Of a DNA stretch of 64,000 nt, positions 1,119-32,725 are shown piece by piece. Location of the stretch: assembly GCA_010365115.1 (NCBI GenBank), contig JAAFGX010000008.1, forward strand, positions 1-64,000, written 5' to 3'. The notes under the pieces were generated by a model, which worked only from the letters and a program-made list of their open reading frames with translations, made no database searches and was not told the origin of the DNA. The DNA is from Paludibacter sp. (GTDB lineage Bacteria; Bacteroidota; Bacteroidia; Bacteroidales; Paludibacteraceae). How positions within the stretch are numbered: position 1 is the first letter of the stretch; each line of letters begins with the position of its first letter. The position numbers were made by a program, and so were the translations under genes.

Positions 1119-3278
1119 TCATTGTTTAATACTCTTTAAATTCCAAATACCTTTCTTGTTTTCTAATATTACAAACGACTGATGTTTTATTGATTCTTGA
1201 ACACTTATTGTTCCATCCTCAGCTATTTGTAGCATCCACTTCTCATTTCTATCAGTACTTTCAATTGAATACGAATTGTTCTCAAATTTACTTTCCCAAC
1301 CTGCTATTCCAGCAAAATCATCAATAGCTAAAGCATGTACAACTGTTCGGTTTAAAGTAGGTTTTTGCTCAACCCAGCGCATTAGTATTGCCGAACCTGG
1401 CTTTCCTTCAGTCCATTGCCCTGAAAGTGTGTGATATGCATCGTGCATAAGGGCATAAATTGGTCCAACCCTGTTATCTTTGGCAAAGTGAGTAATTTTT
1501 ACTCCGGCATCGCCTCGTCTGGCTGTAATCATATTCTGACTATTTAATTGATAATCCAACAATCCATCCCGATTATTAAGCAAAAAGTTCCAGGTTGTTT
1601 TCAGTGGCTCATCCGATTTAATATGATCAACAATAAACAATGCATGTGAACCACATAAAACGAAGAAACGTGTGAAAGTGCGTAATGGTGCTCCGTAAAG
1701 TTGTGCTGCATCTGCACCTATAACTGAAACATCTCCCACTTTAGACGCAATTAAGCGTTTCCCTCCAATATCAATTGGCTCACCGGCAATAAGCTGCCCA
1801 TCTTTATGAACTAACGGACGGTTTGTTCCACCTTTTTGAATGAGTGAACGTGAAGGCGTAGTTTCTGTTTTTACTGTTTCAAAAGTACAAGTATTATGAA
1901 AAGCTGAAGTAACGTCCAAATCACGATTCAGATTTCGATAGCAGGTATGTCCGGGATCGACGAGCAAACGCTCTTTATTATAAGCCAAAATAAAACTATT
2001 GATATCGCCATGCAAGTGAGCCGAAGCATGACGTGGTTCAGCAGGAATACGTACTCCAAGTGAAATCAAACCGCCCCATTTGTCGCGGGCAATGGCGTCT
2101 CCTCCTGAGAAAGAAGTTGTAATAGGCAATTTTGCTTCTATTGGTGAAATAGCAGGAGCGGCATCTGCCAACATAATTACTGACAGGAAACCAAAACCGT
2201 TCACAAAACCGAAACTGGCTAAATCGTGTGGTCCAGGTTCATTTGCCGGAAAATAAAGTGTATCGAAAAGCCAACGGGCAAGTCCGGCTTGCTGCGGCAT
2301 TTCTTTTCGTCCTCGAGTTGCAATATGAATTAATAAATCGCCAGAAGGACGAAAAATAGAGCCGCTATCGCCAAAATTCATACTTTGTGACCAGTCCATA
2401 ATTGGCCATCCCGAAAGTGGTTTGCGATATAAAAATGCATAAGAAGCCCAGTTTACAATACGTCCATAAGGCTCCAAGGTCATTTGCCTTGAAGGATTGT
2501 AACGTTGAAATGCTTCCTGAGCAATCATCAATGAATAAGCTGCATAATTACCATATTGCAACGATTCGCCATAACTTCCATCTTTTTGAAAGTGATCAGC
2601 TGCTATCGGAATCCACAAACTAGCTTCAGCAAGGGCTTTCTCGTCGCCCAACACCGCTGCTGCAACTGAATATCCAGCTAATAACACACAATTCCAGTTA
2701 TGAAAAAAATTAGATCTATCTAAATATCTTTTGCAAGGTAACATCCCTTTTTCACGCAACGCTGTTTTAATTTCTTCCCGTTCTGTTTCAGTAAACAAAT
2801 CCGAGGCAAGATCGTAAGCAATACCAATGCCCCAGGCAAGGTGCCCAGTTTCCAATCCGCCAACCATTTCACCGCCACCACTGTAGCCACGAAAACCAGG
2901 ACCAGCCCAATCGGCCACTGGTCTGCGAACAATGTCTAACACAACTCCACGCAACCATGCATCAACAGCCGGGGTAGGACGAACTGCATGAATTAAAGCT
3001 GCATCTGTCAGATATTCTGCAGCATGATGCCACCACTCGGTAGTTGCCGTTTTATCCGTCAGACTTGGGGAGATAGCTCGTTTAGCTACACGTGCTTGCA
3101 TAGCCGAAAGAAGTTGAGCTGTTGGGGATGTTGATGGTTGAGCTAAAATACGAGCCTTTTCTACATCAGTAAGAAATATACTGGATCTAGCAGAAACAGC
3201 ATTTTGAGCAACCAAATAATTTGGGATTGCAGTCATAATAAATGCTGCAATATAAAATATCGAAAAAACTTTCTTCAT
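1119..3278 (-). CDS. Heparinase II/III-type polysaccharide lyase
   Basis: A 719-residue exported protein (signal peptide about 1-24, ending LVAQ-N). Residues about 70-380 form the helical toroid seen in heparinase II/III, alginate and related lyases, with NFFHNWNCVLL at 190-200 and DGSYGESLQYGNYAAY at 233-248. The C-terminal beta-sandwich domain starts near 390 and carries the family motif HLHGDINSF at 421-429, followed by LLVDPG. In this superfamily an Asn/His/Tyr set abstracts the C5 proton of a uronic acid and leaves a 4,5-unsaturated end. Substrate cannot be told (alginate, glycosaminoglycan-like or other). It is the last gene of the minus-strand run, after RraA-like and VOC genes and GH105 enzymes, which fits removal of unsaturated uronates. 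Not resolved to a PL family. Confidence 0.8.
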   Translation of the reverse strand: MKKVFSIFYIAAFIMTAIPNYLVAQNAVSARSSIFLTDVEKARILAQPSTSPTAQLLSAMQARVAKRAISPSLTDKTATTEWWHHAAEYLTDAALIHAVRPTPAVDAWLRGVVLDIVRRPVADWAGPGFRGYSGGGEMVGGLETGHLAWGIGIAYDLASDLFTETEREEIKTALREKGMLPCKRYLDRSNFFHNWNCVLLAGYSVAAAVLGDEKALAEASLWIPIAADHFQKDGSYGESLQYGNYAAYSLMIAQEAFQRYNPSRQMTLEPYGRIVNWASYAFLYRKPLSGWPIMDWSQSMNFGDSGSIFRPSGDLLIHIATRGRKEMPQQAGLARWLFDTLYFPANEPGPHDLASFGFVNGFGFLSVIMLADAAPAISPIEAKLPITTSFSGGDAIARDKWGGLISLGVRIPAEPRHASAHLHGDINSFILAYNKERLLVDPGHTCYRNLNRDLDVTSAFHNTCTFETVKTETTPSRSLIQKGGTNRPLVHKDGQLIAGEPIDIGGKRLIASKVGDVSVIGADAAQLYGAPLRTFTRFFVLCGSHALFIVDHIKSDEPLKTTWNFLLNNRDGLLDYQLNSQNMITARRGDAGVKITHFAKDNRVGPIYALMHDAYHTLSGQWTEGKPGSAILMRWVEQKPTLNRTVVHALAIDDFAGIAGWESKFENNSYSIESTDRNEKWMLQIAEDGTISVQESIKHQSFVILENKKGIWNLKSIKQ

Positions 3279-3420
3279 TGTTGTTTTTTTGAGTTGTGTT
3301 TTTCAAAAAATAATTTAAAAATCAGATTTAAAAAAAAATATAACAGAATAGCTAAGTAATTGGAAGAATATATTGTCGTAAATGCATCTTTCTATTGTAC
3401 AGACTATCAGCCTTGTATTA

Positions 3421-3470
3421 AATTATGAATTGTGCATTATCAATTATTAATTGTCAATTATCAATTAGTC
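3421..3470. repeat. ATTATCAATTA-type AT-rich repeat
   Basis: Just downstream of the VOC gene the plus strand reads a chain of imperfect direct and inverted copies of AATTATCAATTA / TAATTGTCAATTA. The arms can fold on themselves. Simple AT repeats of this kind recur in Bacteroidetes intergenic DNA; the role is unknown. The surrounding 3279-3475 gap contains no gene. Confidence 0.4.
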
Positions 3471-3475
3471 ACAAA

Positions 3476-4000
3476 CTACTCGGCACTAATAAATTCAACA
3501 AAATTACCATCAGGGTCTTGAATCAGAACAAATTGGCGTTTTGCATCCAGCATTGTGGGCGTTTCGCCTAATGTTTTAATTCCATTTTTTGCAATTCGGT
3601 CAAGCAAGGGCTTCAACGATTTTACAAAAATAGTCAAATAACGAATTCCATTAGCATCCGAAACGGAAGTTTGTTTTGATAATTTTGTTTTTTTGCCGTA
3701 CGACAACAATTTGATTTCTGTTGCGTTTTCTACATTTTCAAGTTTCAACACTTTGATTGAAAGCGTTTCTCCTTTGGTCAAACCCATACGTTTTGCTTTG
3801 GCAGAGTCGACAAATAAATCACGAATAACTACCATGCCCACCACTTTTGTGTAAAAATCAATCGACTTATTCAAGTCCTCAACCACCACGCCAACAGAAA
3901 TGGATGTACGGGAAAATTCTGAATTTGGTTCAATTGCAGAAGTTGGATTTGCAAAAAATAACGCAAAAATAACCGCTAAGTATTTTAATATTTTTTTCAT
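3476..4000 (-). CDS. Exported VOC (glyoxalase/dioxygenase fold) protein
   Basis: A 174-residue protein with a clear signal peptide (about 1-22, FFANPTSA-I) followed by one glyoxalase/bleomycin-resistance/dioxygenase (VOC) unit: VVVEDLNKSIDFYTKVVGM at about 38-56 and the terminal strand FVLIQDPDGNFVEFIS near 157-172. VOC enzymes are metal-dependent and usually cytoplasmic, so export is unusual. It lies between an exported RraA-like protein and a heparinase-type lyase, all on the same strand, which suggests a step on a product of uronate cleavage outside the cytoplasm. That role is inference. The usual metal ligands (His, Glu) are only partly evident: Glu near 169 fits a ligand, but no first-strand His is obvious, so it may not be catalytic. 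Confidence 0.75.
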   Translation of the reverse strand: MKKILKYLAVIFALFFANPTSAIEPNSEFSRTSISVGVVVEDLNKSIDFYTKVVGMVVIRDLFVDSAKAKRMGLTKGETLSIKVLKLENVENATEIKLLSYGKKTKLSKQTSVSDANGIRYLTIFVKSLKPLLDRIAKNGIKTLGETPTMLDAKRQFVLIQDPDGNFVEFISAE

Positions 4001-4059
4001 ATGTTGGAAACAGAAGACAACAAACCGATTTACACCAGTTCAATGTTTTCATTCGTTTA

Positions 4060-5040
4060 TTAGAAATTACGTTTTTGTAAGAATTTGTCTAATTCTGTTC
4101 TTGTCATTGGCAATTTGCCTTTATATGTATCCAACCAGACATTAAAATCTTTTTTAATATCATCCGACCATTTACTATCAATAATTCCGGCTGTATATTT
4201 TCCTTCTTTTATACGTTGTTGACCGAAAATATCAAAAAGCGCGGTGACTTCACCAGTCAAAACAATATGTTCGACCAAGTGTGCAGGGATAAAAATAACG
4301 CCGTCTTTCTTAGCCAAAACAGCATCGCCCGGCAGCACAGTTGCTTCGCCAATACGGATAGGAGCATTGATAGTTGTTAGCAATGTTTTGCGCATATAAG
4401 AAGGGTCAGTGCCTTTTACCCATAAATTAAATCCTTTGATATTACGCAAATCTTCGGTGTCACGAATATGACCGTAAACAATAGCTCCACGGTGTGAGCG
4501 AGCCCAAACACCATTTCCAAGATTTGACCCAACCACTGTTCCATAGGATTGTTTGTTATAACCATCGGCTACATAAAAATCGCCTTCAATCAGCGTTGTC
4601 ATTGCCCAAGATACGGTGCGGCGTTGTTCCCACATGCGACCTTCTTTTTTACCTTGCTCAATCACCTGATTTTCTAAATCGGTACGAGCTGGCATAAACT
4701 GAGCTGTTACAGCACGGCCTGTCATAATATAGTTGTCGTTTTCGTTTAACAGTTTCCAGTTACCTTCAAATTGATTGAAATAACCCAGATTAATCAATTC
4801 AGCCCAGGCCTCTTCCAAGGTGATTTTTTTCAATCTCTCTAATAAATTATCCGATACTTTTGGTCGGCCATCGGCAAAACGTTCGCCAGTCCATTCAACA
4901 GTTAGAGCTTTTATATACTCAGGTGATGAAGCAACATTTTGTGCTTTTGCAAACATGCAACTCATAAAAAGAATTGCTACTAAAATAACTTTTGTCTTCA
5001 TAATTTTATTTGTAATTGATTTGTTTTCTATCATTTTCAT
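4060..5040 (-). CDS. Exported RraA-like family protein
   Basis: A 326-residue protein whose centre matches the RraA / HMG-CHA aldolase-like fold: GDFYVADGYNK, then VVGSNLGNGVWARSHRGA and IVYGHIRDTEDL (substrate-binding Arg and metal-binding Asp of the family), then VLPGDAVLAKKDGVIFIPA. Family members are class II pyruvate aldolases, oxaloacetate decarboxylases or RNase E inhibitors; all studied ones are cytoplasmic. Here a signal peptide is present (MKTKVILVAILFMSCMFAKAQ). The longest frame begins at 5040 and overlaps the GH105 stop by 4 bp; an internal ATG at 5001 gives a cleaner signal peptide and may be the true start. Position between GH105-DUF4861 and VOC suggests work on a keto-acid or unsaturated uronate product. 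Function is inferred. Confidence 0.8.
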   Translation of the reverse strand: MKMIENKSITNKIMKTKVILVAILFMSCMFAKAQNVASSPEYIKALTVEWTGERFADGRPKVSDNLLERLKKITLEEAWAELINLGYFNQFEGNWKLLNENDNYIMTGRAVTAQFMPARTDLENQVIEQGKKEGRMWEQRRTVSWAMTTLIEGDFYVADGYNKQSYGTVVGSNLGNGVWARSHRGAIVYGHIRDTEDLRNIKGFNLWVKGTDPSYMRKTLLTTINAPIRIGEATVLPGDAVLAKKDGVIFIPAHLVEHIVLTGEVTALFDIFGQQRIKEGKYTAGIIDSKWSDDIKKDFNVWLDTYKGKLPMTRTELDKFLQKRNF

Positions 5041-6995
5041 GGGTATCTTGTTGTAATCGATGTATTGAAATCTGCTTTTTTAGTTTCTTTCATTATATAC
5101 TTATTCCAGTCGGTATTGGATTTGAAATACCTGCTTTTTTCCCATCCTGCTCCGGCATAAAAGCTAAATGGAACATTTGTTCTTACTTTTATCAAAATGA
5201 ATTCATCTCCTTTGTAAGACGCAAAACCTACAAAGTTTTTTGGATTTGCCAACACAGCTGATCCTAAACTTCCTTGCGTTGGATTTATTTGTTCCCAAAC
5301 GGATAGAAATGCTTTCTTTTCGTTTTTATAAATTGATGGTTTGCCAAATGTGGTCACACCTATGGCAACAGTTAGTTCCTTATTTTCAGGACTTTTCAAG
5401 GTACTGGTTACTTTAAATAGATTCGTTCCATTTTCCATTTCAATATACTTCTGCTCAGTAATTTGCATTTCAGGAACATTCCATGTATTGTAATTTATTT
5501 CAAATTCAATCTTATCTTTTTGATTTTTGATAATTTTATATGTATCATAAGACTCAGCAGCATACGGTTTTCCATCTATCCAAATAGCGATTCCTCCACA
5601 ACCACGCAATTTACCCATGTCGTAAAAATCGCAACCTTCGCCACGGTCAACGTGGTAATCTTTTCCTTCGGCATTCAACTTGTACCATTTATCCAAAATT
5701 GGGTAATCCACTTTTTTCGCCCAAATATCAACACCACTGCCCACTTTTGCTCGAACTGCAGGTCCAAAAACCCGATAAGCCATGCGGTCATTCTCCCAAG
5801 CCACATCCCGTCCACGAGCTGAAGTTACATAGGTTCGTGGGACGCTTGGGTTATCTATAACTGAGTAAAGCCCAAGTCTTTTCAAAGGAGTAATGCTATC
5901 AATTCCCATTTTGGCAGCCTGCGCATAAGCAAGCACTACCGGACCAAATGCATGATGATCATTGAAGGCCCAAGGTCTCGCTTCATACTCTTTTTTGGTG
6001 CCTTTTCCCGGATTTAAGCAACTAAAACAAGTATGGCTCACCGAACCATCGCTGCCAATATAAGATGTATATCCGCTTAATCCAAGTTTGAAGTTACTCA
6101 TATATTTGTTATCCATCAGCCCTTTTTCGAGCATAATTCCTAAGCCATAAAGCATTAATCCACTCCCTGAAGTTTCTACATACGATTTTGGATTGGTCAT
6201 TTCCTGATGCCACAATCCTTCTTTGTTTTGATAACGAAGTGAGGCTGTAAAAAACTGTTGAGCAAGTGCCACCACTTCTTTGCGTTTTGGATGCGATTCG
6301 GGTAAATCTCTTACCAGAGAAGCAATTGCAAATGCGCCCCAACCATTTCCACGACTCCAGTTATCCTGCGAAAGTACTCCAGGAGCTGTAAATCCTCTGG
6401 CTTGATGCAGCAACCCAGTTTTATTATCTTTCAGTATTTTGAATAATTCCAATGTTTCTTTGACGGCCATATCAACATACTCCTGATTGCCCGATTTCAA
6501 ACCCGAATATAACAAGTAAGGAGTAACTGCAAAAGCTACATCAATAAATATCTGATCATTTTTTGCCCAAACAGCAGTCAGGATTCCTTCCGGAGAACGT
6601 TTTTGATTTTTCATCATTTTCGAAGCTGAATTTTCAACTTGTTCATCCAATTTATCAGTAACTCCCTTCCATGCTAAAAATGCAGCCCCCGAACCGCCTG
6701 CTTCGTAGGAGATAAGACTGCCTTTTGCTTTGATTTCACCATTGCCAAATTTCTGATAGATTCCAATTACTCGATTTTGCAACGCTTCATTTCCTTTTAA
6801 CAAAGAAAACTCACTCATTCCATGCAACATCAACGTACCTGCATAAAAGTCAAGTTCGGTATGTTTTAGTCCTTGTTCAAAAACTGATTTTGTTATATCG
6901 CTGGCGGATAGTGCTTTGTTAGCTTGCCCAACAAGATTTCCATTCAATATTAAAATTGAAAAAAGGCAAAGAAAAGAAATTTTAATTTGTTTCAT
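5037..6995 (-). CDS. GH105-DUF4861 unsaturated uronyl hydrolase fusion
   Basis: A 652-residue exported enzyme (signal peptide 1-23, LVGQ-A). Residues about 30-365 are a GH105/GH88 (alpha/alpha)6 barrel: DQIFIDVAFAVTPYL at 147-161 with the catalytic Asp region, WSRGNGWGAFAI at 213-224, YQNKEGLWHQ at 255-264 and ETSGSGLM at 274-281. Residues about 385-650 match DUF4861, starting ENDRMAYRVFGPA and with DRGEGCDFYDMGKLRGCGG near 450-468. GH105 enzymes hydrate the 4,5-unsaturated uronic acid left by lyases. DUF4861 is of unknown role and often linked to pectin or ulvan loci. It overlaps the downstream RraA-like start (ATGA). It suits the lyase at 1119. Confidence 0.85.
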   Translation of the reverse strand: MKQIKISFLCLFSILILNGNLVGQANKALSASDITKSVFEQGLKHTELDFYAGTLMLHGMSEFSLLKGNEALQNRVIGIYQKFGNGEIKAKGSLISYEAGGSGAAFLAWKGVTDKLDEQVENSASKMMKNQKRSPEGILTAVWAKNDQIFIDVAFAVTPYLLYSGLKSGNQEYVDMAVKETLELFKILKDNKTGLLHQARGFTAPGVLSQDNWSRGNGWGAFAIASLVRDLPESHPKRKEVVALAQQFFTASLRYQNKEGLWHQEMTNPKSYVETSGSGLMLYGLGIMLEKGLMDNKYMSNFKLGLSGYTSYIGSDGSVSHTCFSCLNPGKGTKKEYEARPWAFNDHHAFGPVVLAYAQAAKMGIDSITPLKRLGLYSVIDNPSVPRTYVTSARGRDVAWENDRMAYRVFGPAVRAKVGSGVDIWAKKVDYPILDKWYKLNAEGKDYHVDRGEGCDFYDMGKLRGCGGIAIWIDGKPYAAESYDTYKIIKNQKDKIEFEINYNTWNVPEMQITEQKYIEMENGTNLFKVTSTLKSPENKELTVAIGVTTFGKPSIYKNEKKAFLSVWEQINPTQGSLGSAVLANPKNFVGFASYKGDEFILIKVRTNVPFSFYAGAGWEKSRYFKSNTDWNKYIMKETKKADFNTSITTRYP

Positions 6996-7068
6996 GATAT
7001 ATTCATTTATTCAGTATTTATTCAAATTTTGCTTTTATCGTAAGTCATTATAGAAAAACCCTCACTTT

Positions 7069-7212
7069 TTATTTTTTGACTAATTTGGTATACGACACCT
7101 TTTTCCCATTATTCATAGCCACAATATAGATTCCTTTTGAGAGATCGTTAATGTCAACATTCACGCTCCTACTTTCGGCAATTATTGTTTATTTTGACTG
7201 ACCGTTAAAATT
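7069..7212 (-). pseudogene. T9SS sorting tail cut off by two ochre stops
   Basis: Directly after, and in the same frame as, the stop of the GH88/105-like gene (7213-7215), the minus strand encodes NFNGQSK, a second TAA, then TIIAESRSVNVDINDLSKG and IYIVAMNNGKKVSYTKLVKK before a TAA at 7069-7071. This is a textbook type A T9SS C-terminal sorting tail (IDIxNxxGQ ... INDLSKGIYIV ... KLVKK) with the start of the tail, GEIDI, still inside the ORF. Two sense codons have become TAA. The upstream enzyme therefore ends before its sorting signal and should not be exported through T9SS unless the stops are read through. Confidence 0.85.
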
Positions 7213-8817
7213 TTAAATATCAATTTCCCCGATGAACTTACTATCAGTTTCAACTGTAAATCTATTAGATTTATCCAGCAAATCAATATTAAATTTTAAT
7301 TGAGCAAGTAATCCCATTCCAAACTGCGAGATAACACGATAACCATTTGCTTGCAAAGCCTCACCACCTCTGTTGAGTTGCGAAATATTGGTAAGAAAAC
7401 CATCAGGTGTTATAGATTTAGTCAAAGATTGATTCGTAAGTTTTATTTTTGCAATATACGATTTATCTAACAAACTAAGCTGAACTCCTTCGGCAATGGC
7501 AGTTGCAATACCGGCTGAAGCAGAAGCATCCACACCAGTCTCCGGACGGTCGATATAGCTATACCATAATCCTTCTGAACTTTGATAGCTAAGGGCAGTT
7601 TTTGCAACCTGCTGAAATTCATTTATTACTGAATCAATGCCTTCTAAATTTTCAAAATGACCTTTTTGGAGTGTTTTTATTGTTTTCACCATCCCTAATA
7701 AATACCAAGTTACCCCTCTTCCCCAATTAGCAAATGCACGATGCCCATCAAACGTTGAACGCTGATAAACAATATTATTAATATGCAAAAGTTTAATACG
7801 AAACAACAACTGGTTGAGGGCTTTTTGAGCCAACTCACCATCATTTCTCTGCACAGCAATGGCAGCCAGTGGATACGAAATGCAATAACATCCTTCGGTT
7901 GTTAGTTCATTCCAACTCGCTATTTCTCCGCTTACTAATTCTTTCTTTTTCAAATAATCCAGCGCTATTTGAACAGATGGATGAGTTGGATATAGATTGG
8001 CAATGGCAGCGAAAGGAAGAAAATCCTCAATACTATTGAGCGTTCCATCGCGGGGCTCGGTCATTGGATTCTCAAAACGAAAGCCTTTTTGGGAATCCAA
8101 AAAACAGGCAAGTTGCTTTTTCAAAATAGTTTGGGCTTTTTTATCTCCCTGCATCGACCTTTCCAAAAGTGCATCCATCACACAGCCACTTATCCAACCA
8201 AATGGCGCTATCGAATTCATTGATAGCATATTATTTTGGAAAGCATCATTTTTATCAATGTCGGACTGAATTAAAATATGTGGTTGCAGTCCTTTACTAT
8301 CAATTCGCTTTTTATCAGGCAGAAAAAACCAGGCATCTGTCTTTCCTTTCACCATTTGTAAAGCAATACCATTTGCATTTATTTCATTCAAATAAATTGA
8401 TTCAATTGCAATCTGAAACGGTTGAAAGGGATGAGAGTATCGTATATCAAACTGTCCAATTATTTTTCCTGTAGCAGGAAGGATTGCATTTATCAGAAAC
8501 TCTTCTCTGAAATCTATTGCAGCAGTTATCCGTAACCAAAGGCGTTGCGAATCAGGTTTCAGTTTTGGAAAATTCAATTGAGTGATTGCTCCATTCGACG
8601 CAACAGGAAAAGCTTTCCAGTCAAGTGGAATGCGTTTCGTTGTTGGAAATTGCACATCAGGAGATTGCAAATCAAGAGCTACAACACGACCGGCATTGCA
8701 TTTCCCTTGTGATTTCGCTGAAGTAAATTCAACTAAAAAAAACAAGGATAACAGAACTATAATACGTATTGAAGTTGGATAATTCACACTCACCAGTCTT
8801 AACAGTTTATTTATCAA
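7213..8817 (-). CDS. GH88/GH105-like glycoside hydrolase, tail-truncated
   Basis: A 534-residue protein. Residues about 40-200 look like a beta-sandwich; 205-510 form an (alpha/alpha) barrel with NWGRGVTWYLLGMVKTI at 364-380 and YQSSEGLWYSYIDRPETGVD at 411-430 followed by ASASAGIATAI, the pattern of GH88/GH105 unsaturated uronyl hydrolases. It probably removes unsaturated glucuronyl or galacturonyl ends in the periplasm or outside. The only start available in frame is TTG at 8817, since an upstream stop lies 24 bp away; a hydrophobic stretch follows (IIVLLSLFFLVEFTSA). The last residues are the beginning of a T9SS sorting tail broken by nonsense codons (see 7069-7212). Exact GH family is uncertain. 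Confidence 0.7.
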   Translation of the reverse strand: MINKLLRLVSVNYPTSIRIIVLLSLFFLVEFTSAKSQGKCNAGRVVALDLQSPDVQFPTTKRIPLDWKAFPVASNGAITQLNFPKLKPDSQRLWLRITAAIDFREEFLINAILPATGKIIGQFDIRYSHPFQPFQIAIESIYLNEINANGIALQMVKGKTDAWFFLPDKKRIDSKGLQPHILIQSDIDKNDAFQNNMLSMNSIAPFGWISGCVMDALLERSMQGDKKAQTILKKQLACFLDSQKGFRFENPMTEPRDGTLNSIEDFLPFAAIANLYPTHPSVQIALDYLKKKELVSGEIASWNELTTEGCYCISYPLAAIAVQRNDGELAQKALNQLLFRIKLLHINNIVYQRSTFDGHRAFANWGRGVTWYLLGMVKTIKTLQKGHFENLEGIDSVINEFQQVAKTALSYQSSEGLWYSYIDRPETGVDASASAGIATAIAEGVQLSLLDKSYIAKIKLTNQSLTKSITPDGFLTNISQLNRGGEALQANGYRVISQFGMGLLAQLKFNIDLLDKSNRFTVETDSKFIGEIDI

Positions 8818-8926: not shown

Positions 8927-10732
8927 TTATTTCAATTTCACAATCACTGGTGAACTTAATTTATCAAAATGAATTGTCACTTTTTTTACTCTGTTTTTCG
9001 TTTTCACAGTTACTTCATACGTTCCGAAATGTCCTCTCGATTCAATTGTTCCATTATCATTTGTTTTTCCATCAAACGAAGTTTTCCATTTTTTTGTTAC
9101 CAATTCCCGCCAAACAGCGGCATTTGGCTTTTCACTCCAATCAGTACGCAACATGGCGGCATCTGGTTTCCATTGTTTCGGTTCCCAAAATCCCCAAACA
9201 ACCAATCCGGTAACAATAGGATGACTATAACAAGCAATCAAAAAATCGCGGGTATAATCTGCCTGAAGCTCTTCATCTGTTGTGTTAATATCAAACTCTG
9301 TAATCTGAACCGGAAGTCCGGTTGGCAAAAACAGATCAAGATCTGAAATTACACTTGCCGGACTACGTGGTACACGACCCACATGTCCTTGAATTCCTAA
9401 TGCATCAATAGGAGCACCTTTTGCTCTAAATTTAGCTACAGTGTCAAGATAAGTTCTGATAAACTGCGGACTAGTGACATTATTGAGCATAGCATATTCA
9501 TTCATAAACAATTGAGCTTTAGGATCTATCTCGCGAGCAAGTTTATACCATCTAACAGCCTCGTCAGCAGGTAAGTACTTAAACATATCACGTTCGTGTA
9601 TCACTTCATTGATAACATCCCAAGCTATAACACGCCCTTTAAAATATGTCATTTTATCGCGTATTTCATTTTCTATTGCTTTACTAAATGCGGCAGTATC
9701 TTTTTCAGCCAAATCTTTTAATGATTGTGTATTAAATTTCCACCCTGGCCACACCAAATTATGTCCCCGTTGGCGGAATTTTTCCTTCTCTAGCCATTCA
9801 AAAGCTCGTTTTGTTTCAGGCTGGATTGTTGGATTTGTCCAATTCGGGCTTTTAAAACCGTTTTCAATGACAGCCGTATTAAAAAATTCTTTGAGATATT
9901 TTTTATAGTTCGCTGAATTGGGTAAATCCGTAGCAATCAATTTTTCATAAATAGCTGTTCCCCAGACAAAATCGGATTGAATCATTTTCACATCTACATT
10001 TGCATCTTTCACAGCTTTCCCATTCTTATCGAGAACCTGAACAACAAAAGCTGCAGTGCGTATCTTCTCAATACGTTCAAAAGCTGCATCACGCCATGGT
10101 GCATTTGCCTCACGTCCATCGTAGGTAAATCGGGTTGTTGGCAATTGCACAATAGTAGTTTTTTTGCCGAAATTTAAAACCTCAATATTGGCAACCTCTA
10201 CTTTTTGTGCCAATCCCCCAAAAGAAATACAAATTTCAGACTCTCCGGGCTTCATGTCTTCTGTTGCTTCAAATGGTATTTCATAGGTTTTCCACTCCGG
10301 ACCGGCAGCAAGTTCAGCTACAATTGATCGCTCACCCTTCGTTTTTTGAACATAGAAAAATATTACAGCATCACCCGATTCTTGTTTAGCATAGATACTC
10401 CGCATGGATAATCGAGCTAACATCACATCACCTTTTTTTATAAGGGAAGTTCCTTTCCAACAAGTATTGACATCATAACGTGATTTAGAGGGTGTAAAAA
10501 TTTCTGCACTAAACACTTGAAGTTTATTATCAGATAGACGTACAGAAAAAGTATTCGGTATTTTTCCATCCCAGTTATCATTAAATTTATATTCTTTATC
10601 AGCAGTTAAAGGAAAAACTTGTTCAGGCTGAAGCGATTGTAAAGTCGGGGTTAACGGTAAAACTTCCTGTGCATAAATGCCTGAGCAAATTGCGAAAGAC
10701 AAAAGCAAGTAGATAGAAATTAGTTTTTTCAT
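8927..10732 (-). CDS. GH10 endo-beta-1,4-xylanase
   Basis: A 601-residue exported protein (signal peptide 1-21, GIYAQ). Residues about 30-190 form a CBM-like beta-sandwich (jelly-roll style, with WKTYEIPFEAT), and 210-545 the GH10 (beta/alpha)8 barrel. GH10 landmarks: RGHNLVWPGW at 322-331, the acid/base in WDVINE (Glu376), FMNEY at 409-413 and the nucleophile in QITEFDIN (Glu479), then VVWGFWE. The enzyme cleaves internal beta-1,4-xylosidic bonds. A short C-terminal beta domain follows (about 550-601). Its neighbour on the same strand, upstream, is a PA14-containing GH3 of beta-xylosidase type, which supports xylan or a xylose-containing glycan as a target. Confidence 0.92.
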   Translation of the reverse strand: MKKLISIYLLLSFAICSGIYAQEVLPLTPTLQSLQPEQVFPLTADKEYKFNDNWDGKIPNTFSVRLSDNKLQVFSAEIFTPSKSRYDVNTCWKGTSLIKKGDVMLARLSMRSIYAKQESGDAVIFFYVQKTKGERSIVAELAAGPEWKTYEIPFEATEDMKPGESEICISFGGLAQKVEVANIEVLNFGKKTTIVQLPTTRFTYDGREANAPWRDAAFERIEKIRTAAFVVQVLDKNGKAVKDANVDVKMIQSDFVWGTAIYEKLIATDLPNSANYKKYLKEFFNTAVIENGFKSPNWTNPTIQPETKRAFEWLEKEKFRQRGHNLVWPGWKFNTQSLKDLAEKDTAAFSKAIENEIRDKMTYFKGRVIAWDVINEVIHERDMFKYLPADEAVRWYKLAREIDPKAQLFMNEYAMLNNVTSPQFIRTYLDTVAKFRAKGAPIDALGIQGHVGRVPRSPASVISDLDLFLPTGLPVQITEFDINTTDEELQADYTRDFLIACYSHPIVTGLVVWGFWEPKQWKPDAAMLRTDWSEKPNAAVWRELVTKKWKTSFDGKTNDNGTIESRGHFGTYEVTVKTKNRVKKVTIHFDKLSSPVIVKLK

Positions 10733-10822
10733 TTTTTATTATTTTTTTTTAAGAATAATACTTATTTATAAAAATATTGTTACATACAACTCAAAAAAAA
10801 GACAAAAGCCATTTTTTAATGC

Positions 10823-13444
10823 TTATTTGCTTGATATTGAAATTGTTTTCGAAACAACACTACCTTCGGACATCGAATTTACTGAAGGTTGACCTCCCCC
10901 AACTGAGATTTCAATATTTTCATCAACAAAATATTGTTTTCCATTTTCATCAATTAGAGCTAAATCGATAGCTGTCAAAACAAAAGAAACTTGTTTTGAC
11001 TCACCCGCTTTCAAATGAATTCGTTCGAAACCTTTCAAAGCTCTGATAGGTGCTTTCACTCCTTCTTTTTTATGAGAAATGTAAAGTTGAACAACCTCGT
11101 CACCAGTAACTTTGCCCGTATTGGTTACAGTTGCTTGCACCGTAATTGGTTCATTTGTTTTTGAAGAAGCAGGTAATTCTACATTGCTGTATTTGAATTT
11201 GGTATAACTCAAGCCAAAGCCAAAAGGAAATAATGGTTCACCTTTGAAATAGCGATAGGTGCGATTATCCATACGGTAATCTTCGAAATCGGGAAGGTCG
11301 TTCACGCTTTTGTAGAAAGTTACCGGCAAACGTCCGGAAGGGTTGTAATCGCCAAACAGCACATCGGCAATTGCTTGGCCACCAGCCTGACCGCCATACC
11401 AAGCCTGAATAACGGCTGGTAAATTGGCTGCTTCCCATTCAAAACCCATTGCACTTCCCGACATATTTACAAATACAACTGGCTTACCATTAGCTTTCAA
11501 TGCCTTCATGGTTTCGGTTTGTAAAGCCGGAAGATTTAAATTTGTACGGTCGCCGCCTTTGAAACCATCCACCGACACCGGCATTGATTCGCCCTCGAGT
11601 TGAGCTGAAATTCCACCTACAAAAATAATTGCATCGGCACCTTTCACTTTTGCAGCTAATTGAAGCGGCGTAAGTGTTTCAATATAACCCATATCAAATT
11701 TCACTTCGGCATTGTCGTTAAATTGAACATACTCAATTTTCAACTCGTATTTTTTCCCTTTCTCAGCTTTTAAAGCATAATACGAATTTTTCAAATCCGT
11801 TTCAATCACTTTTTCTCCGTTAATGAATAGTTTTGCACGATCGTCGCCACTTAAACAAAATGTTACATCGCCTGATTTTTCAGGAATAAAGGTCGTTTCC
11901 CAACGTGCTGACATATCACGAATAATAATCTTATTGTCAATACTATGACCATCGCCCCATTTAAAATCTACTTTTTTGTCAACTCTTTTCAATAAAGCAT
12001 TATCAGCAAATTTTGCGTTTTGGAAATATGAAGCACTAAAACCTTCCTGACCATTAAATTTAAATAATCTGACATTGTAATTTGACTTAAATACTTTATT
12101 ATCAACCAAATTTAGTCCTTGTTCGAAAATTACTTTTTTCCCCATTTTTTGTTTTACACCCTCCAAAACCGTGGAAACATGCGTAGGGTAACCGTAGTAA
12201 TTGGATAACATCACCATTTTATCGTTTGCATTAGGGCCTACAATAGCTATCTTTTTGAGTTTTTTGCTCAATGGTAAAATATTGTTTTCATTTTTCAATA
12301 ATACAATGGATTGTTGCGCCATTTTGAGTGCGTGTGCTTTATGCGCATCATTTTCTAACACCGAAATATCTGTTTTTCCCAAAGGAACAAGCTCATTGTC
12401 ATCAAACATTCCCAAGCGGAAACGAATCATAAACAGACGTTTAACAGAAGTTGTGATTTTATCTTCCGTCAATAATCCTTGAGTCAACGCATTTTTCAAT
12501 GCCTTGTAAGTCGGGTCGCTAGAGCATTCGCAGTCAGTACCGTTAATTACAGCATCAGCGGAAGCCAATTCTCTTGTGGCATGGGTTTTATGCGTTTTCC
12601 AAAAGAATGAAATACCGCCACAATCGGAAGTTACATAGCCTTTAAAGCCCCATTTATTACGAAGAATATCTTGCATCAATTTTTCATTACCACAGCAAGG
12701 TTTTCCTTCAAACTGATTGTAAGCACACATGACGCCACTCACTTTAGCATCAACAATCAGATCGCGGAAAGCTGGCAAATAAGTATCCCACAAATCGTAT
12801 TTCGATACCTGGGCATTATAAGTGCTTCTGTTCCATTCCGGACCGCTATGAACTGCAAAATGTTTGGCACAAGCCGATGCTTTTAGGTATTTAGGGTCAT
12901 TGCCTTCCAAACCAGTAACAAATGCTTTACCCAATGAGCCGGTCAAAAATGGATCTTCACCATAAGTTTCCTGTCCGCGTCCCCAGCGTGGGTCACGAAA
13001 AATATTAATGTTGGGCGTCCAATAAGTCAAACCTAGATAGATGCCAGTATTCCCTTTTTTCTGTGAATCGTTGTAAATGGCACGACCTTCGACAGCACAA
13101 TAATCGGCCATGGTGTGCATAGCAGCTGCATCCCAGCCGGCGGCCATGGCAATGGCTTGTGGATAGGAAGTTACATTATAAGGGCTACGGGCTACGCCGT
13201 GCAGTGTTTCATTCCACCAATTATATGCAGGAATTCCCAATCGGGATATTGCAGGCGCATTATTTACCATTTGACCAATTTTCTCTTCCAGCGTCAATTG
13301 TGAAACCAAATTATCAACACGTTGCTCAAAAGTCAATGAAATGTCCTGAAATGGATATTTCTCTGCTTTTACGGCAGTGAATAAGTTTAAAAGTACAACT
13401 ACAAATACTGTTAGCTTAAAAGTGAATTTTGAATTTCGTTTCAT
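10823..13444 (-). CDS. GH3 beta-xylosidase-type enzyme with PA14 insert
   Basis: An 873-residue exported enzyme (signal peptide about 1-27). N-terminal GH3 barrel about 38-345: YGEDPFLTG, ACAKHFAVHSGPE with the Lys-His pair, and the nucleophile Asp274 in GYVTSDCGGI. The TSDCGG context is typical of beta-xylosidase-like GH3 members. The C-terminal alpha/beta sandwich is interrupted by a PA14 domain at about 465-590 (SGDDRAKLFINGEKVIE), which in relatives shapes substrate size preference. A FnIII-like GH3 tail closes the protein. Next in the operon is GH10 xylanase, 90 bp away, so trimming of xylo-oligosaccharides is likely. Confidence 0.9.
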   Translation of the reverse strand: MKRNSKFTFKLTVFVVVLLNLFTAVKAEKYPFQDISLTFEQRVDNLVSQLTLEEKIGQMVNNAPAISRLGIPAYNWWNETLHGVARSPYNVTSYPQAIAMAAGWDAAAMHTMADYCAVEGRAIYNDSQKKGNTGIYLGLTYWTPNINIFRDPRWGRGQETYGEDPFLTGSLGKAFVTGLEGNDPKYLKASACAKHFAVHSGPEWNRSTYNAQVSKYDLWDTYLPAFRDLIVDAKVSGVMCAYNQFEGKPCCGNEKLMQDILRNKWGFKGYVTSDCGGISFFWKTHKTHATRELASADAVINGTDCECSSDPTYKALKNALTQGLLTEDKITTSVKRLFMIRFRLGMFDDNELVPLGKTDISVLENDAHKAHALKMAQQSIVLLKNENNILPLSKKLKKIAIVGPNANDKMVMLSNYYGYPTHVSTVLEGVKQKMGKKVIFEQGLNLVDNKVFKSNYNVRLFKFNGQEGFSASYFQNAKFADNALLKRVDKKVDFKWGDGHSIDNKIIIRDMSARWETTFIPEKSGDVTFCLSGDDRAKLFINGEKVIETDLKNSYYALKAEKGKKYELKIEYVQFNDNAEVKFDMGYIETLTPLQLAAKVKGADAIIFVGGISAQLEGESMPVSVDGFKGGDRTNLNLPALQTETMKALKANGKPVVFVNMSGSAMGFEWEAANLPAVIQAWYGGQAGGQAIADVLFGDYNPSGRLPVTFYKSVNDLPDFEDYRMDNRTYRYFKGEPLFPFGFGLSYTKFKYSNVELPASSKTNEPITVQATVTNTGKVTGDEVVQLYISHKKEGVKAPIRALKGFERIHLKAGESKQVSFVLTAIDLALIDENGKQYFVDENIEISVGGGQPSVNSMSEGSVVSKTISISSK

Positions 13445-13479
13445 CGGTTGTGTGATTTTTAAAAAAATATGTTGTTAAA

Positions 13480-13510
13480 AGTCCCCCTTGGGGGATTTAG
13501 GGGTTTTTTT
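13480..13510. repeat. CCCCCTTGGGGG intergenic palindrome
   Basis: Between the two GH3 genes the plus strand reads GTCCCCCTTGGGGGATTTAG followed by GGG and a run of T. The C5/G5 arms at 83-87 and 90-94 of this 13400 block form a compact hairpin. This exact kind of phrase recurs as a dispersed repeat in many Bacteroidetes genomes. On the plus strand it is followed by a T-tract, but both flanking genes run on the minus strand, so it is more likely a repeat or mRNA-stabilising hairpin than their terminator. Confidence 0.5.
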
Positions 13511-15708
13511 TATTCTAACTCAAACTTTACTTTCTGATTTCCAACATGAATATAGAAATCACCAGTTTCCACAAAGCGCTTTCCTGTTCCATCAGTATAA
13601 CTCAAATCACGCATTGGGTCAATCTCAAATTTAAAAGTAGTTTTATCGCCTGCATTAATTTCCTTTTTTTTGAAGTATTTTAGTTCCTTCATCGGACGTG
13701 AAATGGAACAAACCGGATCGGAAATATACCACAAAACAGTTTCTTTTCCTTTTACTGCTCCGCTATTGGTTACAGTAACTTCAATGGTTAGTTTTTCGTT
13801 TTTAGTGATTTTTTTTGCAGAAAGTTTAGCTTCATCATAACTGAATGTTGTATAGCTTAACCCATGACCAAACCAATACATCGGTTCAACTGGAATGTCC
13901 TGATAATCACCCATAGCCTGATATGGACGAGCACTTTGACGCATATTGTAATACATTGGAATTTGTCCGGTAGTAAGCGGGAAAGTGATAGCCAGTTTTC
14001 CTGAAGGATTTACCCTGCCCGATAAAATACCAGCCAAAGGTGTCCCACCGGCAATTCCCGGTTGCCATATCTCCACAATGGCATCAGCCAATGGTTCGAG
14101 GCGAACCAACTCCAACGGACGACCATTTGACAAAACCAAAATGATTGGTTTACCTGTTTGTTTCAGTTTTTCAACCAATTTTTCTTGAATAGCTGGCAAA
14201 GCAATGGTTGAGCGGGAAGCATTTTCGCCACTCCAGGTTTTTAATTCGCCCAAACAAACCAAAATAGCATCCGAACCATTCGCCGCAGCAATGGCTTCCT
14301 CAAAACCTTTTTCGTCAGTTCCTTCAAATCCGCAACCGTATGCATAATTCAACTGAATTTTTCCGCTGAATTCTTTCTCCAAGCCTTCGAAAATTGATTC
14401 CACATCATTTGCTTTTCCGTTAAACGACCACGAACCCAACATATTCTCTTTGTCCTTTGCCATTGGTCCGATGACCGCCAATTTTTTAATATTACCTGAA
14501 AATGGTAAGGCTTTTTTTGTATTTTTAAGTAACACCATCGACTCCTCAGCCAATTTCTCAGCCAAAGCCACATCTTGTGGCTTTAAATAACGTTCATTTT
14601 CATCCAACACTTTGGTGTAAGGTTCATCAAACAAGCCCAAACGGAACTTTACACGCAACACACGGGCAACAGCATCGTCAATCTTTGCCATTGGAATTTT
14701 CTTTTCGGCAACCAATTTTGGAAAATATTCCAGATAGATATTATCTCTCATATCCATTTCTATTCCCGCCATAAAAGCCTTCAAACCAGCTTCAGCAGAA
14801 TCTTTTGCAACTCCCTGATAAACAAGTTGCGCTACTGCATTCCAATCAGCTACCACAAAACCATCATGTTTCCATCTATTTTTCAAAATTTCTGTCAGGG
14901 TATAATGATTGGCTGTAGCCGGTACGCCATTCAGGTCGTTAAATCCACTCATCAAGGTTGCAGCACCAGCTTTTACACAAGCTTCGTATGGTGGCAAATA
15001 GGTTTCCCAAAGAGATTGAGCCGAAATATTGGATGACCGATAATCACGTCCACCTTCGGACATTCCATACCCAACATAATGTTTTAAACAAGCTGCAATT
15101 GAATAGGGGTCTGAAAGATTTTTCCCTTGATAACCTTTTACAGAAGCAACACCAAAAACAGCATTCATGTAAGGATCTTCGCCGTATCCTTCAGACACGC
15201 GCCCCCAACGTGGATCGAGGGCCACATCAATCATCGGTGAAAAAGTCCAGTCGACACCCGACAATACCGATTCTTTTGCTGCAACTCCACAAGCTTTAGT
15301 CACCAATTCGGGATTAAATGTACAAGCCTGTGCCAACGAAATAGGATAAACTGTACGAAAGCCATGAATAACATCAAACCCAAAAAGAATGGGAATTCCC
15401 AATCGAGATTCTTCCATGGCTTTTTTCTGAATTTCATTGCGCAAAACTGGATTTGCACTGAAATAAATCAACGAACCTATTCCGGCAGGTAATTTCTTAA
15501 CCTCTGGTCCAATGTTGTTTGGATTGTTGTTTTCGCCAAATGTATATTGATTCAACTGAAGAATCTTTTCTTCGAGTGTCATTCGTTTGACTAAATCCTT
15601 GATACGAGATTCAATTGGTTGTTTTGCATCCTTATATTTTGGTAGTTTATTGGCACTAACACCGAATATTATCAAAAAGGAAATTAATGCAGATTGAAAT
15701 AGTTTCAT
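13510..15708 (-). CDS. GH3 beta-glucosidase, BglX type
   Basis: Two-domain GH3 enzyme of about 732 residues. The frame stays open to a TTG at 15729, but ATG at 15706-15708 gives the better signal peptide (MKLFQSALISFLIIFGVSA) and is chosen. Counting from the TTG, the barrel carries RVSEGYGEDPY near 178-187, CLKHYVGYG near 214-222 and the nucleophile Asp295 in GFVVADWNAV. The alpha/beta sandwich (about 390-600) and FnIII-like tail (650-735) are present, including WFGHGLSYTTF. Probable beta-glucosidase acting in the periplasm; specificity for glucose over xylose is inferred from similarity to BglX-like sequences. It lies just after GH31 (spacing about 28 bp). Confidence 0.88.
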   Translation of the reverse strand: MKLFQSALISFLIIFGVSANKLPKYKDAKQPIESRIKDLVKRMTLEEKILQLNQYTFGENNNPNNIGPEVKKLPAGIGSLIYFSANPVLRNEIQKKAMEESRLGIPILFGFDVIHGFRTVYPISLAQACTFNPELVTKACGVAAKESVLSGVDWTFSPMIDVALDPRWGRVSEGYGEDPYMNAVFGVASVKGYQGKNLSDPYSIAACLKHYVGYGMSEGGRDYRSSNISAQSLWETYLPPYEACVKAGAATLMSGFNDLNGVPATANHYTLTEILKNRWKHDGFVVADWNAVAQLVYQGVAKDSAEAGLKAFMAGIEMDMRDNIYLEYFPKLVAEKKIPMAKIDDAVARVLRVKFRLGLFDEPYTKVLDENERYLKPQDVALAEKLAEESMVLLKNTKKALPFSGNIKKLAVIGPMAKDKENMLGSWSFNGKANDVESIFEGLEKEFSGKIQLNYAYGCGFEGTDEKGFEEAIAAANGSDAILVCLGELKTWSGENASRSTIALPAIQEKLVEKLKQTGKPIILVLSNGRPLELVRLEPLADAIVEIWQPGIAGGTPLAGILSGRVNPSGKLAITFPLTTGQIPMYYNMRQSARPYQAMGDYQDIPVEPMYWFGHGLSYTTFSYDEAKLSAKKITKNEKLTIEVTVTNSGAVKGKETVLWYISDPVCSISRPMKELKYFKKKEINAGDKTTFKFEIDPMRDLSYTDGTGKRFVETGDFYIHVGNQKVKFELE

Positions 15709-15736
15709 TATGAATAAATTATTTTTCAATTAAAAA

Positions 15737-17356
15737 TTACATTCTTGTAAAATACACCAACCTATTGAGTGGTACATTCATTTTTACGGTTTTACCGCCT
15801 TTGTATTTTTTACCCAAATCGTCAACCCAGGAACCTTTTGGCAATTTCACATCACGAGATTCGCCTTTATCCACCATTGGTGCAACCAAGTATTTGTCGC
15901 CCAACATAAACTGGTCGTCGCACGAACTGAAACCCTGATTTGGGAACGAATATTCCAAATGACGAACAATAGGTTCACCGTCTTTTGCCGCTTTTTGAGC
16001 CAATTCGTAGATATAATCGCCCATTTTGGCATGCAACAATGCGGCATCTTGTACGATTTTTAAATGCTGAGCGTCCAACACTCTCCAAGGTGCAACTGAG
16101 AATTGCATCATTGGCATCAGGGCTTGTATCTGAGCCGAACGAACCATCAACTCCTGATCAAATGTTTTGTAATCGATATTCTCAAAGTCACCCAACAAAC
16201 CACCACCAATCATATCGGGGCAAGTGAACGCATGTCCAATTAAACCAGCAGAAAGCATATCAGGGACAAGCAGTTTTATATCGTCCCACGAGTAGCGTTT
16301 GTCTTGCAGACGTTGCGCCAATGGTTGACCACCATTTTTCCATCCTGCACGAAACTCATTGAAATCGAATGCTGTGCCTAATTTTCCAAACATTTCGGTT
16401 TGCAAACAAGGCTCTGTATTGGTATCTTCGTTGGGAAAAATACGAGAACCTTTGGCATAAAAATCAAAATCGGCAGCATCAAATTTAAAACCATCAATAC
16501 CGTATCTTTCTTGCAAACTTTTCAACTTAGTTTGCATCCATTCCAACGCTTTGGGATTGGTCAAATCCAAACAAGCACTGTAACCGTTCCACCATTTAAT
16601 TAGTGCGGGAGCTTTGCTGCCTTTTTTCAAAATCAAACAATTTGCTTGGGCCAACTCTCTATATTCCTTGCTGTCGGGACTTACAAATGGTGTTACCCAT
16701 AGCATTACTTTAAATCCTTTGGCATGAAGATAATCCATCATTCCTTTTGGATTGGGGAAAGTGGTTGGATTAAACTCGTAGTTTCCATAGTAATGGGACC
16801 AATTGTCGTCAATCATAAACACACCCACGGGAAAACCGTTTTTCATCACATCATCAGCATATTTAATTACATCTTTTTGGTTTTGATCTGTCCCCAATTC
16901 AATCCATGTGTTGTATTGTGGTATTTTGAACATCAATTCGTTGGGTGTTTTCCCTGAGGCAGGGAAGAATTTTGCTTGTGCCGACATGTAAGCCTCGCGC
17001 AAGGTTTTTCCCCCCACGGCGGATTCTATTTTTTCAACATCGGAGGATAGTATGATGTTTCCATCTTTAAATTCGAACACAAAGGGGGCGTTGCTCCAAA
17101 CATAACGTCCTTTATTAGACATCAATAGCGGAGCTGCTTGATTGCCACGATTGTCGGTTCTCAAATCATTTCTCTTTTCGTTGGCAGCATAAGGCTGAAA
17201 CGTAATGTCTTTTAGCGGCGTGTTGCAAAAGGCTTTGGCGGTATATGCACCGTACCATTTTTCACCTTCCAACGATTTAATTTCAGACATAAATTTTTGG
17301 GCAAAAATACTTGTAGTAAAAACGAACAACAGCACTGCCAATAGAGATTTTTTCAT
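15737..17356 (-). CDS. GH31 alpha-glycosidase
   Basis: A 539-residue exported enzyme (signal peptide 1-19, TTSIFAQ). Short for GH31, with only a brief N-terminal beta domain (to about 140). The barrel shows GVFMIDDNWSHYYG at 178-191, the nucleophile in IDGFKFDAAD (Asp293), and GHAFTCPDMIGGG at 374-386 with the candidate acid/base region. C-terminal VAPMVDKGESRDVKLPKGSW matches the proximal beta domain of GH31. Family activities include alpha-glucosidase, alpha-xylosidase and sulfoquinovosidase; the sequence does not settle which. Between a DUF5696 enzyme and a GH3 beta-glucosidase, alpha-xylosidase or alpha-glucosidase would both make sense. Confidence 0.88.
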   Translation of the reverse strand: MKKSLLAVLLFVFTTSIFAQKFMSEIKSLEGEKWYGAYTAKAFCNTPLKDITFQPYAANEKRNDLRTDNRGNQAAPLLMSNKGRYVWSNAPFVFEFKDGNIILSSDVEKIESAVGGKTLREAYMSAQAKFFPASGKTPNELMFKIPQYNTWIELGTDQNQKDVIKYADDVMKNGFPVGVFMIDDNWSHYYGNYEFNPTTFPNPKGMMDYLHAKGFKVMLWVTPFVSPDSKEYRELAQANCLILKKGSKAPALIKWWNGYSACLDLTNPKALEWMQTKLKSLQERYGIDGFKFDAADFDFYAKGSRIFPNEDTNTEPCLQTEMFGKLGTAFDFNEFRAGWKNGGQPLAQRLQDKRYSWDDIKLLVPDMLSAGLIGHAFTCPDMIGGGLLGDFENIDYKTFDQELMVRSAQIQALMPMMQFSVAPWRVLDAQHLKIVQDAALLHAKMGDYIYELAQKAAKDGEPIVRHLEYSFPNQGFSSCDDQFMLGDKYLVAPMVDKGESRDVKLPKGSWVDDLGKKYKGGKTVKMNVPLNRLVYFTRM

Positions 17357-17474
17357 AAATTTATTTTTTAATTATTATTTACAATATAATGGTTGTAATG
17401 AGCCAACTAACTACAGAAGCAGTATTTTGAATTTCGATTACGCATGATAGTTTTATAAATTGACTTTAATGTTA

Positions 17475-19373: not shown

Positions 19374-19425
19374 TTGGAAATTAGTTTTATTACAAAGGCT
19401 ATTTTTGATTTTTGGATTTAATATC

Positions 19426-21651: not shown

Positions 21652-21951
21652 AAATACTGTTGATTTTTTTTGTTTTCAATACATTTTTAATGCGAAACAA
21701 ATTGAATACGGTCTTTATAATACGATGTTAATAATTAATGAGTGTTTTTTCACCGTCCAATAAAAAATGACTCTTATCAGCCATCTTGCTATCTCATTAT
21801 CATTATTTTTATAACAATTATGAGAATAATTACCTATATATGTTTAAAGAGGCTACTCTCAATTTCATAATTTATTTGAAATAAGAATAGCCTCTTTTTA
21901 CATTTGCTCACAAAATAAAAGAGCTAAACACAATCAATTCACCTAAACAAA
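21652..21951. other. 300-bp gap before GH92, mostly empty
   Basis: No gene is seen. The gap carries one strong stem-loop (21846-21899) and AT-rich DNA. It separates the Sus transport genes from the degradative genes, so it is the natural place for differential expression or a second promoter, though no clear TAnnTTTG box was found on the minus strand. Confidence 0.5.
21846..21899 (-). terminator. Stem-loop after surface lipoprotein gene
   Basis: Ten-bp perfect outer stem, AAAGAGGCTA (21846-21855) with TAGCCTCTTT (21888-21897), plus an inner ATTTCA/TGAAAT pairing. Minus-strand genes end just before it at 21952. In the minus direction only three T follow, so it is a weak intrinsic terminator; partial termination or RNA-end protection would lower expression of the enzymes relative to SusC/D. 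Confidence 0.55.
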
Positions 21952-23031: not shown

Positions 23032-23068
23032 ATCAATTATGAATTATAAATTATTAGTTATCAAATAA

Positions 23069-24826: not shown

Positions 24827-24841
24827 TATTTAATCGAGTTA

Positions 24842-27655: not shown

Positions 27656-27681
27656 ATTTTTCGATTAGAATTAGTTAGTGC

Positions 27682-29457: not shown

Positions 29458-29469
29458 ATTCCTGATTTA

Positions 29470-32604: not shown

Positions 32605-32669
32605 ATAATTAATTTTATTAAATTTTCGTATGGTCACTTTAATTTTTTCAAATACAAAGGGTTTTCAGA

Positions 32670-32704
32670 ACAGGGATGATAGCTTTTTAAATTATCATCC
32701 CTGT
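32670..32704 (-). terminator. Stem-loop between propeller gene and SusC
   Basis: Perfect 12-bp stem ACAGGGATGATA (32670-32681) and TATCATCCCTGT (32693-32704) with an 11-nt loop, 22 bp after the stop at 32726. On the minus strand it is followed by TCTGAAAACCC, with no U-run, so it may act as a stabiliser or partial terminator rather than a classic intrinsic terminator. It would allow separate dosing of the secreted protein and SusC. Confidence 0.6.
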
Positions 32705-32725
32705 GTAAATCTGAATTTATTGATT

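Follow-up and report, generated by a model that had tools for sequence, protein, structure and literature searches.

A predicted exported RraA protein beside unsaturated-uronyl hydrolases in a Paludibacter polysaccharide utilisation locus: a candidate step of uronate processing before uptake

What may an RraA-family protein with a signal-like N-terminus do at the end of a glycan-degrading locus? The question is raised by a stretch of 64,000 nucleotides from Paludibacter sp. (GenBank assembly GCA_010365115.1, contig JAAFGX010000008.1, positions 1 to 64,000; hereafter, the window). Five co-directional genes, whose open reading frames we confirmed on the minus strand at the positions first assigned to them, encode a heparinase II/III-type lyase, a VOC-fold protein, an RraA-fold protein, a GH88/GH105 hydrolase fused to DUF4861 and one more, GH88-like protein (Table 1); the initial annotation viewed them as an exported set processing the keto-uronate released after lyase cleavage. 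RraA proteins are usually found inside cells, and the metabolism of the keto-uronate arising from the action of lyases and GH105 enzymes is, to our knowledge, generally placed in the cytoplasm. We propose, tentatively, that this block makes up the uronate-trimming end of the locus and that the keto acid released by the GH105 enzyme is the likeliest substrate of the exported RraA; the rough probability that we give to this reading is 0.42. Extracytoplasmic uronate handling by RraA has comparative support for the clade to which the window protein belongs, and the part originally ascribed to the VOC protein gains little.

A scan of named genomes gave at least 561 relatives of the window RraA. The locus counts below refer to the best 80 (L043 to L122), in which the partner genes were sought with hidden Markov models built from few sequences, so that remote GH105 or lyase genes could be missed. 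In a maximum-likelihood tree of 118 rows, limited to those longer than 280 aa and with a bootstrap not fully settled, the RraA proteins of the window, L043, L044, L045, L053, L046 and L047 form one clade (support 100/100, branch length 0.82 changes per column), the records being named Flavobacterium, Sunxiuqinia, Segetibacter and rumen Bacteroidales/Bacteroidia. A GH105 or PL8 gene directly adjoins RraA in all seven members: the GH105-DUF4861 fusion lies just upstream of it in the window and in L043 to L045, L053 has two GH105 genes in tandem next to it, and in L046 and L047 a PL8 gene overlaps it by 16 bp, as the reading frames were called. The coupling of RraA with unsaturated-uronyl hydrolases or lyases, claimed earlier for the window, thus recurs. 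Since all seven adjoin GH105 or PL8, RraA is not scattered with respect to these genes within the clade. The VOC gene is found together with RraA and GH105-DUF4861 in no more than three of the loci compared, the window, L043 and L044, each of which also has a HepII/III-domain protein nearby; we therefore rejected the five genes as a fixed module. In the fetched DNA of L045 neither a VOC gene nor a HepII- or PL8-type lyase was detected. The PL8-type lyase at L047:5468-8956 (with a relative at L046:6537-10031) has about 640 extra N-terminal residues, for which a weak pectate-lyase-like Pfam match was the only one (E 0.39).

The seven proteins also share a residue. Among 98 aligned RraA copies (97 from the loci plus the window; one L072 copy was left out, and L003 was omitted from the alignments owing to a stop within its match), position 172 is Asp in 85 and Ser in 13, and Ser172 is present in 7/7 clade members. 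The usual neighbour of the Asp172 copies is an enolase-superfamily sugar-acid dehydratase, which adjoins 76 of the 85 (four of the other nine lie at contig ends) and 3 of the 12 Ser172 copies beyond the window's own. Fisher's test for association of Ser172 with lyase/GH105 neighbours gives 9e-7, which we do not take as proof, all positives being members of one clade.

As for export, our home-made rule (a hydrophobic stretch plus a small-residue cleavage site, with a start at any Met up to residue 40) was passed by 94 of the 98 copies, that of the window included; one of the four failures is truncated at a contig end. Relatives of the protein are present in 10 of 247 genomes of the order (E 1e-10) and in 24 of 395 genomes of the phylum (E 1e-20), the window's own genome being included in both. 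Judged by these N-termini, exported-type RraA is a Bacteroidota family and not a peculiarity of the window. The N-terminal segments look signal-like by eye in all five proteins of the block, and the signal peptides assigned to RraA and VOC are borne out to that extent, that of RraA by the above rule as well; from this we infer the export of the window RraA. The 4-bp overlap reported at 5037-5040 exists only with the first ATG of RraA. It disappears with a start near 5001, probably the true one, as the match to each of the three nearest relatives begins at about residue 12-14; the gap to the preceding gene would then be about 35 bp. The role of an RNase E regulator was rejected for this RraA in view of its signal-like N-terminus and the glycan and sugar-acid genes around the family.

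The AlphaFold model of the window RraA (mean pLDDT 89.9) has the RraA fold: a Foldseek search matched it to 5x15 (RraAS2; E 3.8e-14, TM on target 0.90) and to 3noj (HMG/CHA aldolase; E 2.5e-13, TM on target 0.73), the best row by E-value being 5ir2, and its core carries N- and C-terminal extensions. Arg193-Asp194, which aligns with R123 and the next Asp of 3NOJ, is kept in 98/98 copies and in 42/43 copies of a separate set, drawn from the order and phylum scans (the split L169 is not counted; the set partly overlaps the first one, L171 having the same sequence as L070 of the tree). Position 172 aligns with an Asp of the aldolase that precedes Arg123 by 21 residues, and the window clade, carrying Ser there, departs from the D-X20-R-D pattern, which we take to be the motif of class II pyruvate aldolases of the HMG/CHA type. 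Because this Asp is replaced, we do not file the clade among the class II pyruvate aldolases, and pyruvate-releasing aldol cleavage by it is a prediction only. The HMG/CHA aldolase paper states that one of two motifs is present in most RraA homologues and that these are likely class II pyruvate aldolases (PMC5065237).

We infer the substrate and reaction as follows. Outside the cytoplasm, 4-deoxy-5-keto-uronate (DEHU, or DKI) would be set free by the heparinase-type lyase together with the exported GH105-DUF4861 fusion. This compound is a 4-hydroxy-2-oxo acid, of the same chemical class as the 2-keto-3-deoxy acids that would be formed by sugar-acid dehydratases, whose genes stand beside most other exported-type RraA genes. 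The exported RraA would enolise it through the Arg-Asp site and then either cleave it by a retro-aldol reaction to pyruvate and a C3 dialdehyde or dehydrate it. Thus, the pairing hints that unsaturated uronic acids may be processed before uptake.

The following points weigh against this scheme. The seven loci are one clade, and the GH105/PL8 pairing may therefore reflect few independent events; in the fetched DNA of L046 and L047 PL8 is present and no window-type GH105 was detected. The GH105 model has a sole match outside the clade among the 80 loci, a more distant GH105-like gene in L091; it is encoded on the other strand, some 2.3 kb from an RraA copy which has a dehydratase next to it. Ser172 is not unique to the lyase/GH105 clade: six copies outside it (in L106, L113, L119 and L122, and two in L118) have this residue, three of them beside a dehydratase, and it occurs in 2 of the 43 copies of the separate set, one with a dehydratase nearby. 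Ser at the aldolase-aligned position may mean that metal binding is changed or lost. No keto-acid carrier was recognised by Pfam at 1119-36191. Homologues of KduI and KDPG aldolase are encoded in the window's genome, which leaves room for import and cytoplasmic handling. Finally, FlDet of Flavobacterium sp. UMI-01, an RraA-family KDGR dehydratase/decarboxylase of alginate-derived DEHU metabolism, acts only on oxidised KDGR and shows no activity on DEHU, KDG, KDPG and HOD; its N-terminus is at Met, with no signal peptide removed, i.e., the enzyme is cytoplasmic (PMC8563752).

Some of these points suit an ordinary uronate locus, in which DKI would be imported and handled by cytoplasmic KduI, a reductase, KDG kinase and KDPG aldolase, while RraA and VOC would act on some other exported compound, such as a lactone or an aryl acid, or be passengers. 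The presence of the KduI and KDPG aldolase homologues agrees with this, as do the vicinity of VOC to RraA in only three of the seven clade loci and the UxaC and SSF transporter genes downstream of RraA in L045. However, GH105 or PL8 adjoins RraA throughout the clade, across several families, and always together with Ser172, so that RraA is hardly a passenger; on balance we consider the ordinary locus a somewhat unlikely explanation, although one to be reckoned with. Another possibility is that RraA is an exported dehydratase/decarboxylase similar to FlDet, with an oxidised keto-aldarate of the KDGR type, and not DKI, as the substrate. Outside the cytoplasm an NAD-dependent oxidation would not be expected, and no dehydrogenase able to make the oxidised acid was recognised by Pfam in the block; in addition, FlDet has 237 residues against 326 in the window RraA, with its core extended at both ends. 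FlDet does provide a precedent, being an RraA-family enzyme with such an activity on a DEHU-derived acid (PMC8563752), and we regard this alternative as quite improbable.

As to the enzymes that would supply the substrate on the preferred reading, uronate release by the block and its use by RraA, the domains of the lyase, VOC, RraA and GH88/105-DUF4861 proteins stand as first called, by Pfam; the 534-aa protein, called GH88/105 too, matches the family at residues 347-502 only. The Hepar_II_III_C domain of the 719-aa protein scores 33.9 bits against a cut-off of 24, which places it in the family and leaves its lyase activity a prediction; it also weakly matches the solved chain 8khv (E 1.2e-4) around the NWN region, and no NCBIfam family matched it. 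In the fused protein, Asp152 of the GH88 domain aligns with Asp143 of YteR, presumably the catalytic residue, and it is kept in 4/4 aligned GH105-DUF4861 fusions (the window and three orthologues). No Asp of the 534-aa protein aligns with D152 in a weak global alignment, and the local alignment stops short of the site; a catalytic Asp is not evident in its sequence.

The DUF4861 domain was modelled confidently (pLDDT 90.1), and its low-TM matches to supersandwich folds, some of them mutarotases, include GalM and HI1317. This resemblance, along with the fusion of DUF4861 to GH105 in four of the seven clade loci, would fit a role of RraA in opening the ring of the unsaturated monouronate, or in its tautomerisation, outside the cytoplasm, in the manner of KdgF or KduI and together with a mutarotase-like DUF4861. 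Such a role seems to us very unlikely, given that TM on the query is about 0.5 at most, that phosphorylases, lyases and YidC are among the matches as well, and that DUF4861 was not detected in L046, L047 and L053. A whole-protein search with GH105-DUF4861 in 394 other genomes, with at most three candidates scored per genome, listed no match across both domains; three of the DUF4861 matches fall within open frames some 748 residues long and were judged on the DUF4861 part alone. The literature search found nothing on DUF4861.

The VOC protein was compared with human glyoxalase I, whose metal ligands we take to be Gln33, Glu99, His126 and Glu172. In a weak alignment (E 3.5e-4), His126 is paired with Tyr and Glu172 with Glu; Glu99 is inside an insertion, and the aligned part does not quite reach Gln33; His or Gln occupies the first ligand position in 0/9 aligned VOC relatives. 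At least two of the four ligands are replaced, which is at odds with a metal-dependent VOC glyoxalase, and the protein probably plays an accessory role. Its orthologues in L043 and L044 also start with hydrophobic signal-like segments. Outside these two loci and the window the VOC model had no match in any other of the 80 loci, and six other VOC relatives (395 genomes, E 1e-12) are situated in stretches without detected RraA or GH105. VOC was therefore rejected as a general RraA partner; together with the second GH88-like hydrolase, it adds little to the idea of RraA acting on uronates.

For the RraA family taken as a whole a link to lyases does not hold; its main neighbour is the sugar-acid dehydratase, present in 67 of the 80 loci; a BASS (SBF) transporter is encoded in 39. 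In the separate set a dehydratase lies within 2.5 kb of RraA in 33 of the 43 cases, SBF in 23 and either of them in 39, and window-type GH105, DUF4861, HepII or PL8 were detected in none of the 43 fetched stretches. Galactonate dehydratase is the best NCBIfam match, below the cut-off, for four of four dehydratase representatives; the BASS representative is above the Pfam SBF cut-off and has the ketopantoate transporter PanS as its second NCBIfam match, below the cut-off. A loose pattern finds an RR motif within the N-terminal 45 residues of 75 of 80 full-length dehydratase copies. Of these 80, no more than 33 pass a hydrophobic-segment rule, in part since many have long N-terminal leaders that move the segment beyond the scanned region, and this weakens the wider picture; export of the dehydratases is likely, if less sure than that of RraA. 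UxuA-like genes occur in 6 of the 80 loci, and 9 of 10 proteins of the UxuA-like cluster start with an RR motif.

These neighbours allow one to imagine that, in Bacteroidota, C-C bonds of keto acids derived from sugars are cleaved before uptake: 2-keto-3-deoxy-type acids would be supplied by exported dehydratases or by GH105 enzymes and split by exported RraA aldolases into pyruvate and an aldehyde, BASS-type carriers would import the keto acid, and the window clade would be a branch rewired from dehydratase products to unsaturated uronates. Since the export of the dehydratases is less sure, we hold this extension to be speculative and unlikely as a whole. Several loci (e.g., L064, L066 and L086) contain two tandem RraA-dehydratase pairs each, SusC is present in 39 of the 80 loci with exported-type RraA, and in a Mucilaginibacter record (L118:7578-13023) two adjacent RraA genes of the exported type are flanked by three UxuA-like genes.

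In the window itself, the five genes are not self-contained. Upstream of them, in the same direction, Pfam recognised GH10, two GH3, GH31, GH129-like and GH92 genes and a gene of a PKD protein, and, further upstream, SusD, SusC-like, SusD and SusC genes and those of two DUF6383 proteins; with GH and SusC/SusD genes continuing it, the block belongs to a large polysaccharide utilisation locus and forms its distal end. The 937-aa SusC-like protein (24842-27655) has a Plug match only, and the adjoining second SusC has more of the domains usual for SusC. A regulator at 36716-39526 combines Reg_prop, Y_Y_Y and AraC-type HTH domains, and Pfam found no kinase or receiver domain in it, unlike the full hybrid sensor at L047:15845-19747.

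Table 1. Positions of the block, of two sites in RraA and of the remaining locus in the window.
Feature	Position	Strand	Basis
Heparinase II/III-type lyase, 719 aa, signal-like N-terminus	1119..3278	-	PF07940 3.1e-08
Predicted exported VOC-fold protein, 174 aa	3476..4000	-	PF00903 (Glyoxalase/VOC) 2.8e-14
Predicted exported RraA-fold protein, 326 aa as annotated	4060..5040	-	PF03737 3.4e-20
RraA Ser172 codon	4525..4527	-	Family alignment, 98 copies
RraA Arg193-Asp194 codons, RD pair of the RraA/HMG-CHA aldolase site	4459..4464	-	Alignment with RD of 3NOJ
Predicted exported GH88/GH105 domain fused to DUF4861, 652 aa	5037..6995	-	PF07470 1.5e-42 + PF16153 1.1e-51
534-aa protein, GH88-like C-terminal half, signal-like N-terminus	7213..8817	-	PF07470 2.6e-23, residues 347-502
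Remainder of the locus, GH10 to DUF6383 genes	8927..36191	-	Pfam

Among the literature matches listed, an exported RraA in polysaccharide loci was not found, the nearest being FlDet and a listing of haloarchaeal clusters; the search gave no match for RraA with polysaccharide utilization or for RraA with mandelate racemase. If our reading is true, a recurrent exported RraA-GH105 pair within a large RraA-dehydratase family places catabolic steps before uptake, and the Ser/Asp172 contrast offers a simple handle on the choice of substrate by RraA.

Of the known systems, FlDet resembles the window RraA in its family and in the position of its gene, which flanks an alginate lyase gene, and the DEHU-derived keto acid on which it acts recalls the substrate proposed here; it differs in its shorter chain, its N-terminus and its rejection of DEHU (PMC8563752). 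HMG/CHA aldolase (3NOJ) has the same fold and Arg-Asp pair, but is an enzyme of aromatic breakdown (PMC5065237); its Asp corresponds to Ser172 of the window, and identity in the structural match is 19%. The exported RraA proteins beside dehydratases belong to the same family and have the signal-like N-terminus and the RD site of the window protein, but they have a dehydratase, often with BASS, and mostly Asp172, where the window clade has GH105 or PL8. In the haloarchaeal mannan clusters, manD and RraA are listed together, i.e., an RraA-family gene and a sugar-acid dehydratase stand in a glycan cluster; these are archaeal and directed at mannan, and export of RraA is not stated in the part of the source available (PMC10963439). 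The uronate dehydratases GH154/GDH and P29_PDnc are also extra enzymes coupled to GH88/GH105 in Bacteroidota loci; they act upstream, making the GH88/105 substrate, whereas RraA would act downstream of the hydrolase (PMC12269599, PMC8511951).

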